This document shows, piece after piece, positions 26,876 through 27,703 of a stretch of DNA of 41,469 nucleotides. The notes below the pieces were generated by a model, which had not been told where the DNA came from, did not search any database, and saw nothing but the letters and a program-made list of their open reading frames with translations. The stretch comes from Candidatus Omnitrophota bacterium (GTDB lineage Bacteria; Omnitrophota; Gorgyraeia; Aquiviventales; Aquiviventaceae), in NCBI GenBank assembly GCA_023247215.1, contig JAHFGX010000010.1, positions 1-41,469 of the forward strand, in the 5' to 3' direction. A program made the position numbers and the translations under genes. Each line of letters starts with the position of its first letter. Position 1 is the stretch's first letter.

Positions 26876-26949
26876 GCGCCCGTAGCTCACTTGGATAGAG
26901 CGCTTGGCTTCGAACCAAGAGGCAGCAGGTTCGAATCCTGCCGGGCGCG
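26876..26949 (+). tRNA. tRNA-Arg (anticodon TCG)
   Basis: A full cloverleaf can be drawn: acceptor GCGCCCG/CGGGCGC, anticodon stem CTTGG/CCAAG with loop CTTCGAA (anticodon 26910-26912) and a T-arm with loop TTCGAAT. CCA is not encoded. The last 18 bases plus one downstream base recur at 27083-27101. Confidence 0.97.
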
Positions 26950-27101
26950 TAGTTTCGCTAGGTTGGCAGGATTCGAAGAGAGCGCCGACTCAGGTTCAGG
27001 TCACTGCGACGGCTAGGAGCAGTGACCTTCCTTCGGAGGCGCGAGTGGCCGACCCAGAACGAGCGAAGCGAGTGAAGGGCGCCGAATCCTGCCGGGCGCG
27101 T
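26932..27101 (+). repeat. tRNA-tail element E1 (after tRNA-Arg)
   Basis: The 19 bases CGAATCCTGCCGGGCGCGT occur at 26932-26950 (the tRNA-Arg 3' tail from position C56) and again at 27083-27101, a period of 151. Between them lies an antisense arm GGCAGGATTCG (26965-26975), perfectly complementary to 27083-27093. A conserved core follows: GAGCGCCGAC, an internal hairpin AGGTCACTGC/GCAGTGACCT at 26998-27007/27019-27028, then GGAGGCGCGAGTGGCCGACC. GGCGC before the second tail pairs with GCGCC after the antisense arm. GTGTTTT follows the second tail. The core is shared with E2 and E3. No protein is encoded. Confidence 0.85.
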
Positions 27102-27118
27102 GTTTTCATATTGTGTGC

Positions 27119-27191
27119 GGGCCGCTAGCTCAATCGGCAGAGCAGGGGACTCTTAATCCCAAGGTTGATGGTTCGATTCCATCGCGGCCCA
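27119..27191 (+). tRNA. tRNA-Lys (anticodon CTT)
   Basis: Acceptor GGGCCGC/GCGGCCC, D-arm TAGCTCAATCGGCAGAGCA, anticodon loop CTCTTAA (anticodon 27152-27154) and T-loop TTCGATT. The first anticodon-stem pair is a G-A mismatch. CCA is not encoded. It is the only tRNA here not followed by a tail element; tRNA-Leu starts 11 bases later. Confidence 0.97.
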
Positions 27192-27202
27192 CGTTCTTTT
27201 GT

Positions 27203-27284
27203 GGGCGAGTGGCGGAACTGGCAGACGCGACGGCCTTAGGAGCCGTTGGGGCAACCCGTAGAGGTTCAAATCCTCTCTCGCCCA
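27203..27284 (+). tRNA. tRNA-Leu (anticodon TAG)
   Basis: A class II tRNA with a long variable arm. Acceptor GGGCGAG/CTCGCCC, anticodon stem ACGGC/GCCGT with loop CTTAGGA (anticodon 27237-27239), variable arm TTGGGGCAACCC and T-loop TTCAAAT. CCA is not encoded. Its 3' tail recurs at 27422-27440. Confidence 0.97.
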
Positions 27285-27440
27285 GTTTTGAGGAATCGTG
27301 AGAGGATTTGAAGGGAGCGCCGACCAGGCTGAAGGGAGCCGCGACCGTTGTGGGAGCGGCGACGACCTTAGGAGGGCCGGGCGGCCGACCTGAAGTGAGC
27401 CGTGAGGCGAACGGAAGGCGCCAAATCCTCTCTCGCCCAG
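27267..27440 (+). repeat. tRNA-tail element E2 (after tRNA-Leu)
   Basis: CAAATCCTCTCTCGCCCAG occurs at 27267-27285 (tRNA-Leu tail from C56, plus one base) and at 27422-27440, a period of 155. The antisense arm GAGAGGATTTG (27300-27310) is perfectly complementary to 27422-27432. The core has GGGAGCGCCGACC, an internal hairpin GCCGC/GCGGC (27338-27342/27356-27360) with the GAC...GGGA loop seen in the other copies, and GGCCGACCTGAAGTGAGCC up to GAACGGAAGGCGCC. tRNA-Gly begins 25 bases after the second tail. Confidence 0.85.
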
Positions 27441-27465
27441 GGATCAGGAAGTCGGCACAGATTTC

Positions 27466-27537
27466 GCGGGTGTAGCTCAGTGGTAGAGCGTCACGTTGCC
27501 AACGTGAATGTCGTGGGTTCAAGTCCCATCACCCGCT
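27466..27537 (+). tRNA. tRNA-Gly (anticodon GCC)
   Basis: Acceptor GCGGGTG/CACCCGC, anticodon stem TCACG/CGTGA with loop TTGCCAA (anticodon 27498-27500) and T-loop TTCAAGT. CCA is not encoded. Its tail and the following T-tract recur at 27676-27703. Confidence 0.97.
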
Positions 27538-27703
27538 CGTTTTTTCGTTGGAAGTGAGGGGATTTGAAGGGAGCGCCGACCAGGCTTCACGGCACTGCGA
27601 CTTAAGGAGCAGTGCCGTTCCTTGGGAGGCGCGGGTGGCCGACCTGAAGTGAGCCGTGAGGCGAACGGAAGGCGCCAAGTCCCATCACCCGCTCGTTTTT
27701 TCG
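27520..27703 (+). repeat. tRNA-tail element E3 (after tRNA-Gly)
   Basis: A 28-base exact duplication, 27520-27547 and 27676-27703 (period 156), starts at C56 of tRNA-Gly and runs 10 bases past the tRNA end through a T6 tract. The antisense arm GTGAGGGGATTTG (27554-27566) pairs with 27676-27688, with one G-T wobble and one mismatch. The internal hairpin ACGGCACTGC/GCAGTGCCGT (27589-27598/27609-27618) is a perfect 10-bp stem. The core GAAGGGAGCGCCGACCAGGC and the closing GAACGGAAGGCGCC are identical to E2. The T-tract after the second copy could serve as transcription terminator. Confidence 0.87.

Follow-up and report, generated by a model that had tools for sequence, protein, structure and literature searches.

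A cluster of four tRNA genes at positions 26875-27703 of the DNA analysed here (the window, 41,469 nucleotides of a contig from a Candidatus Omnitrophota bacterium) raises the question of how one and the same core can stand behind almost every tRNA, and yet be bounded by an antisense arm and a sense copy that are rewritten to match the end of each host. Three of the genes, namely those for tRNA-Arg, tRNA-Leu and tRNA-Gly, are followed on their 3' side by related elements of ~135 nt, each ending in a perfect copy of nucleotides 56-73 of its host. The remaining gene, tRNA-Lys, lacks an element and serves as a control within the cluster. The host genome (G000) is a 92% complete draft of 1.46 Mb in 57 contigs.

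Direct repeats of the tRNA 3' end, starting from C56, had been noted in the preliminary description of this locus, and when measured again they gave the same values, with spacings of 151, 155 and 156 and identical stretches of 19, 19 and 28 nt for Arg, Leu and Gly, respectively. Given that a particular 18-mer is expected to recur within 320 nt by chance with a probability of ~5e-9, chance repetition was ruled out as the origin of the tail copies. The features of the cluster are as follows, with T1 denoting the tail belonging to the tRNA itself and T2 its downstream copy:

26876-26949, + strand: tRNA-Arg(TCG), called by ARAGORN at 26875-26950; own tail T1 (C56-N73) at 26932-26949
26965-26975, + strand: Arg element, antisense tail copy (GGCAGGATTCG) with complementarity to both T1 and T2
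26976-27082, + strand: Arg element, structured core (AAGAGAGCGCC...GAAGGGCGC); covariance-model match 26961-27108, 142 bits
27083-27100, + strand: Arg element, tail copy T2 (CGAATCCTGCCGGGCGCG), 18/18; identity extends through 27101
27119-27192, + strand: tRNA-Lys(CTT), without element
27203-27284, + strand: tRNA-Leu(TAG), called by ARAGORN at 27202-27285; T1 at 27267-27284
27297-27310, + strand: Leu element, antisense copy (CGTGAGAGGATTTG), 13/14 complementary
27311-27421, + strand: Leu element, structured core; model match, 131.8 bits
27422-27439, + strand: Leu element, tail copy T2, 18/18; identity extends through 27440
27466-27537, + strand: tRNA-Gly(GCC), called by ARAGORN at 27466-27538; T1 at 27520-27537
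27554-27566, + strand: Gly element, antisense copy (GTGAGGGGATTTG); of 13 positions, 11 Watson-Crick and one G.U
27567-27675, + strand: Gly element, structured core of nested helices with tandem G.A steps; model match, 157.8 bits
27676-27693, + strand: Gly element, tail copy T2, 18/18; identity reaches 27703, within the T-rich flank, and totals 28 nt

Anatomy of the elements

The elements are built to a single plan, in which the tRNA is followed by a short spacer, an antisense arm, a covarying core and a sense copy of tRNA positions 56-73; this anatomy is directly observed and can be regarded as very nearly certain. Among 65 non-tandem elements the identity between copy and tRNA, taken position by position, is 91-100% across positions 56-73, falls to 0.65 past position 73 and then to ~0.5, against a shuffled baseline of ~0.3-0.45, and in 54 of the 65 the tail copy matches at all 18 positions. 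Immediately 5' of C56 the identity between element copies and their host tRNAs is ~0-1%. Where the tRNA genes lack an encoded CCA the copy stops at N73; where they have one, as in genus g43, it goes on to CC or CCA.

The antisense arm is an inverted copy of tRNA positions 56 to ~66 and lies 10-20 nt past each tRNA. Its complementarity is high at positions 56-66 and reaches background by about position 69, and in genus g43 the arm is 8 nt long and perfect in nearly all cases. A near-invariant AA directly follows the arm and a GC directly precedes the tail copy; to judge from the sequence, this AA could lengthen the pairing of the arm to include U54U55 of the tRNA itself, but not of the copy preceded by GC. 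About nine of the older elements have a copy with a decayed acceptor part, and yet keep the core fold and an arm complementary to the tRNA's own tail; this indicates that the full copy is not always needed, and counts against the composite interpretation given below. The tail copies of the preliminary description are thereby borne out; it had missed the antisense arm and the coevolution of tail, arm and copy (see below), which change the picture.

Several individual cases depart from this plan. Where a copy is perfect but for one mismatch, the position most often affected is the discriminator, 73, always with A in the tRNA and G in the copy (L057, L076, L109, L136). After tRNA-Ala(CGC) in two genomes (L118 in G001, L123 in G016), a CCA stands after the tail copy and none is encoded by the tRNA gene, so that it is the copy that looks like the original end. 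A solo antisense arm, perfect over 12-14 nt and without core or tail copy, follows tRNA-Glu(CTC) in the host genome (L048, contig C31), and similar solo arms are found after Gln(TTG) in G001 and after Arg(CCG) and Arg(TCG) in G021.

A conserved and covarying core

The core consists of nested helices, with tandem G.A steps of the GCGACC/GGGAGC type in nearly all copies, and the cores seem to be modular. A covariance model (R1) was built from an alignment of ten copies (A1), and in this alignment, which was made independently of the model, 19 of 39 base pairs show changes on both sides. In an alignment of 64 diverse copies (A3), which was fitted to the model so that its pair counts lean towards the structure, two-sided changes are seen in 35 of the 39 pairs, and paired cells amount to 92.7% as opposed to 39-46% when the partners are slid. 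Scanning positions 26000-29000 of the window against Rfam with cmscan yielded nothing but tRNA above the cut-off.

Other core types and related repeats were also encountered. AT-rich variants (GTCAATCAAGAGAGCCGAGGAAATTGTCGATTG...) occupy the middle of the core, with both ends canonical, at five loci of G021 (L072, L102, L104, L108, L115). A second core family, GAAGG-CCGAGCGCCC...CGCGCTCG-GCATTCC...GCGCCGACCATCAGGGTCGGCGC..., likewise has a tRNA antisense arm in front of it, and a tail copy may be present or lacking; its sites are L004 (G000 C14, after tRNA-Met), L006 (G000 C54, after the Thr element), and L101 and L110 in G021. Genus g43 contains another repeat that starts right at the tRNA CCA end, CCAAATCCGCCGAAGGCGGATTTGATCCTGAGAATACGACCGAACAGGGAGTATTCG, and includes a GACC/GGGAG tandem G.A step (L311, L302, L304). 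After tRNA-Leu(CAA) of the host genome (L052, contig C15) the T-arm GAGAGTTCGATTCT occurs again 65 nt downstream, with a CCTCCCCCGGCA tail beyond it and no match to the model.

Phyletic distribution

In the host genome R1 yields 12 matches at E <= 0.01, all of them directly 3' of tRNAs and always on the sense strand; these loci, spread over 8 contigs, belong to Arg (three), Leu and Pro (two each), Gly, Lys, Thr, Tyr and Val. Matches are present in 21 of 40 relatives, with 0 to 26 per genome. Across the host genome and these relatives, all 93 distinct matches lie 3' of a tRNA or a tRNA-like tail and in the same orientation, 90 of them after an annotated tRNA and three after tRNA-like tails uncalled by ARAGORN, and nearly all have a copy of the adjoining tRNA's own tail. 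A model search of this kind had been suggested from the outset, and it finds the elements where they were anticipated, immediately 3' of tRNAs and with matching tails. The core common to different tRNAs with tRNA-specific ends, which had been proposed from the three copies of the cluster, likewise recurs at the 12 loci of this genome and phylum-wide.

Under strict filters, copies were recovered from 94 of 384 sampled Omnitrophota genomes, and the layout is unchanged in distant members belonging to other families and classes. Occupancy is patchy, with elements at 12 of the 44 tRNAs here, at about 20 in G021 and none detected in other members of the family, a pattern unlike that of an essential regulator. 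Among 24 genomes of other phyla (~100 Mb, Gammaproteobacteria not among them) the model found no true copy; the sole match, an acidobacterial one of 28.6 bits (L331), was rejected as a false positive with no tRNA and an apparent location in coding sequence. Searches of the literature yielded nothing relevant on tRNA-tail elements in Omnitrophota.

Gain, loss and core exchange, and the case for mobility

The sister species G001, of the same genus and apparently isolate NC_groundwater_667_Ag_B-0.1um_66_59 (its model matches lie at the same places as those of G419), has the same Arg-Lys-Leu-Gly cluster, with the Arg and Gly sites empty and the Leu element reduced to a collapsed remnant; at four other loci the element is present in both genomes, with divergent cores. 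Core similarity is 0.63 within a genome, as against 0.543 for the same tRNA and 0.564 for a different tRNA in another genome, and only 1 core of 72 has its nearest relative behind the same tRNA of another genome. In genus g43 the core has been swapped at loci with the same spacer, and in G021 and other genomes tandem units duplicate the tail-spacer-arm segment around different cores.

The fate of the bounding segments could be followed in eight genomes of genus g43, in which orthologous loci were recognised by alignable short spacers (mean identity 0.79). The copy remains equal to the tail in these orthologues (0.068 differences per site), though the core (0.66) and the flank of the copy (0.58) have changed. 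Each of the four substitutions seen in the tail (Leu 59, Lys 60, Met* 57, Tyr 57) has its counterpart in arm and copy alike, indicating that the three-part relation is maintained; the one exception to the concordance of tail and copy is the Leu copy of G332, with T against C in the tail. A reading of the copies as plain target-site duplications is weakened by the way in which arm and copy follow the substitutions of the tail, and also by the identity stopping at the tRNA end, with many 18/18 copies set in unrelated flanks. Thus, elements are gained, lost and core-swapped among tRNA loci, with the match of tail, arm and copy kept.

The strongest rival to the composite interpretation that we develop below is a selfish miniature mobile element aimed at the tRNA T-loop. 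An enzyme acting in trans would insert the core at C56 with a target duplication of 18-28 bp, the minimum that keeps the tRNA intact; the arm would arise by fold-back copying on insertion, and the fold would serve mobility, in the form of single-stranded DNA or RNA, rather than the host. The empty Arg and Gly sites and the collapsed Leu remnant of G001, the greater likeness of cores within a genome than at the same tRNA elsewhere, their exchange at same-spacer loci, the tandem arrays and the 28-nt duplications of young copies all favour such an element, as does the presence of a Y1 (HUH) transposase gene in 10 of the 11 element-bearing genomes tested, the most genes (8 copies) being found in the element-rich G021. 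However, 6 of the 9 genomes in which no element was detected have Y1 genes as well, and the distribution of these genes, while compatible with a RAYT-like single-strand mechanism, is not evidence for it. That tail, arm and copy should change together in orthologues is unexpected of a neutral insertion scar, and copies at sites other than tRNA genes were not encountered. Furthermore, RVT_1, the reverse transcriptase that a retroelement inserted by target-primed reverse transcription would require, is absent from 10 of 11 element-bearing genomes (incomplete drafts) and Cas1 (PF01867) from all 20 draft genomes tested. We regard the mobile element as a serious possibility, if one that is less likely than not. 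A resident reverse transcriptase and Cas1 as the mobilisers were rejected on the basis of these same absences.

Predicted folding of the tRNA precursors

We folded 61 whole transcripts of tRNA plus element with ViennaRNA. In the predicted fold the partner of the 5' strand of the acceptor is the copy in 56 of the 61 transcripts and the tRNA's own tail in none, the own tail being paired with the antisense arm instead. Forcing the normal tRNA costs a median of 5.1 kcal/mol, which predicts that this exchanged form (state B) is favoured over one with a normal tRNA (state A), under a program that takes no account of the tertiary energy of the tRNA, of its modification or of co-transcriptional folding, each of which favours state A. 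In control foldings of the tRNA with 8 nt added the own tail lies in the acceptor in 60 of 61, and with the element's first 70 nt the normal acceptor is lost in 51 of 61. A foreign copy leaves the acceptor without a T1 or T2 partner in 47 of 61, and a foreign element brings the own tail back in 43 of 61. With a foreign arm and the native copy, the copy is still in the acceptor in 51 of 61, indicating that the preference for the copy is not specific to the matched arm.

The interpretation that we favour, tentatively and at slightly less than even confidence, is a composite one, in which the elements are RtT-like trailer RNAs that are spreading and form a bistable precursor with their tRNA. The element would be a 3' trailer co-transcribed with the tRNA, and its antisense arm would be able to pair with either copy of the tail, as would the 5' part of the tRNA. 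State A would then comprise a normal tRNA and a closed trailer, and in state B the own tail would be sequestered by the arm and replaced by the copy in the acceptor stem. The balance between the two would gate the maturation of the tRNA 3' end. The copy would give the trailer a tRNA-like 3' end, as in RttR of E. coli, which is annotated as ending with the CCA of its tail copy. We propose that the regeneration of an intact tRNA on insertion is what allows the elements to spread and persist. The E. coli tyrT and tyrV transcripts with their RtT repeats show the same predicted fold, and the functioning of E. coli tRNA-Tyr despite a predicted state B counts against the bistable part of this interpretation.

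A more far-reaching version posits a phylum-wide RNA switch, in which the arm would evict the original end, the copy would substitute for it and the core would control maturation, with arm and copy rewritten for each host tRNA during spread and the E. coli RtT as a surviving relative; this appears rather unlikely. The preliminary description had offered a choice between a mobile repeat and a processing or regulatory RNA. Gain and loss and the conserved fold uphold this suggestion in part, both mobility by a known enzyme and a regulatory function being conjectural.

Less probable origins

Attachment sites in tRNA genes classically show an identity block that extends from the T-loop as far as the 3' end of the tRNA. 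The elements could be viewed as integration remnants of tyrosine recombinases, with T1 and T2 as attL and attR of a tiny island. However, integrase specificity gives no such spread as that of one core on nearly every isoacceptor with the matching tail, and the inverted tail is foreign to attachment sites. Inserts of ~135 nt with a strongly covarying fold, and neither an integrase gene nor room for one, likewise speak against integration, and we consider it very improbable.

An intron-like alternative, in which the segment from C56 of T1 to C56 of the copy would be removed from the state-B RNA to leave a normal tRNA, draws on the location of both borders at tRNA position 55/56 and on the predicted ground state, B, with the copy in the acceptor stem. 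Such splicing is not needed, since T1 already completes the tRNA; no known splicing ribozyme or bacterial splicing motif is present, with only tRNA above the Rfam cut-off, and the alternative is scarcely credible. Tandem duplication of one tRNA locus, which the preliminary description had set against its own proposal and which three copies in one cluster might suggest, has a negligible probability and is ruled out by the tRNA-specific tails, the 12 tRNA loci on 8 contigs, the phylum-wide family and a sister species with the same cluster and no intact elements.

Comparison with known systems

The tandem units recall CRISPR arrays and casposons in that tail, spacer and arm are duplicated round each core as a repeat is round a spacer, with the tRNA as a fixed leader, but there is no Cas1 in the 20 genomes tested and the cores constitute a conserved RNA family rather than captured foreign DNA. 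Genomic islands and phages at tRNA ends (attL/attR) resemble the elements in having a direct repeat that runs from the T-loop through the end of the tRNA, and in the regeneration of an intact tRNA; the Omnitrophota elements differ in the lack of an integrase, their size of ~135 nt, the inverted tail, their presence on all isoacceptors and the conserved RNA fold. The REP/BIME/REPIN sequences, which are mobilised by RAYT (Y1 HUH), are similarly short, non-coding, folded repeats that are homogeneous within a genome, and Y1 genes are present in most genomes here. However, REPs are numerous and scattered between genes, whereas the Omnitrophota elements stand solely behind tRNAs and carry host-specific tails.

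By plan, the elements are the same kind of thing as the RtT or rtT repeats of the E. coli tyrT-tyrV operon (Rfam RF00391; Bosl and Kersten 1991, as cited in PMC4986893 and PMC2965389). The resemblance in layout noted in the preliminary description was confirmed in the E. coli repeats, in which the arm, the tail copy and the position 3' of a tRNA are all found. The E. coli unit has an arm (GGGGAAGG[AG]T) and a core, and its tail copy takes in 19 nt of the tRNA 3' end (A58-A76); in both systems the outer stem is formed by the antisense arm and the tail copy. Both also form tandem arrays of varying copy number, E. coli genomes with RtT holding 1 to 14 unit-matching places. The tandem G.A motif of RtT, which has covariation support (PMC7657543, PMC8250186), lies in a helix inside the outer stem, as it does in the Omnitrophota elements, and the predicted strand exchange is common to tyrT, tyrV and the present precursors. 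The two differ in that the Omnitrophota elements are found in a different phylum, on nearly all isoacceptors and each with its own tail; their copy starts at C56 and that of E. coli at A58, and the 3' half of the core is different.

The Rfam RtT family covers four units in E. coli tyrT/tyrV, and the same scan leaves the Omnitrophota window unmatched, RF00391 being absent from the cmscan of positions 26000-29000 even at E <= 1, so the elements are not filed as RtT members. In the reverse direction, models R1 and R2 hit RtT weakly but specifically, with all four K-12 copies ranked at the top, on the right strand and in register, at 20.6, 20.5, 18.4 and 11.2 bits; the highest score in 815 kb of unrelated DNA was 15.2 bits. 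The elements are possibly distant homologs of the E. coli RtT. RtT-family RNAs adjoining Asn and Lys tRNAs in Actinobacillus give Northern blot signals (PMC4986893). On the whole, the Omnitrophota family looks like a many-tRNA and much larger version of the E. coli tyrosine-tRNA oddity, and what was an isolated curiosity of the tyrT repeats becomes one member of a widespread class, whose design rule combines an antisense arm with a sense copy, both matching the end of the host tRNA. The class offers hundreds of natural variants for tests of structure and function, and its predicted bistable tRNA precursor is amenable to experiment in E. coli K-12.
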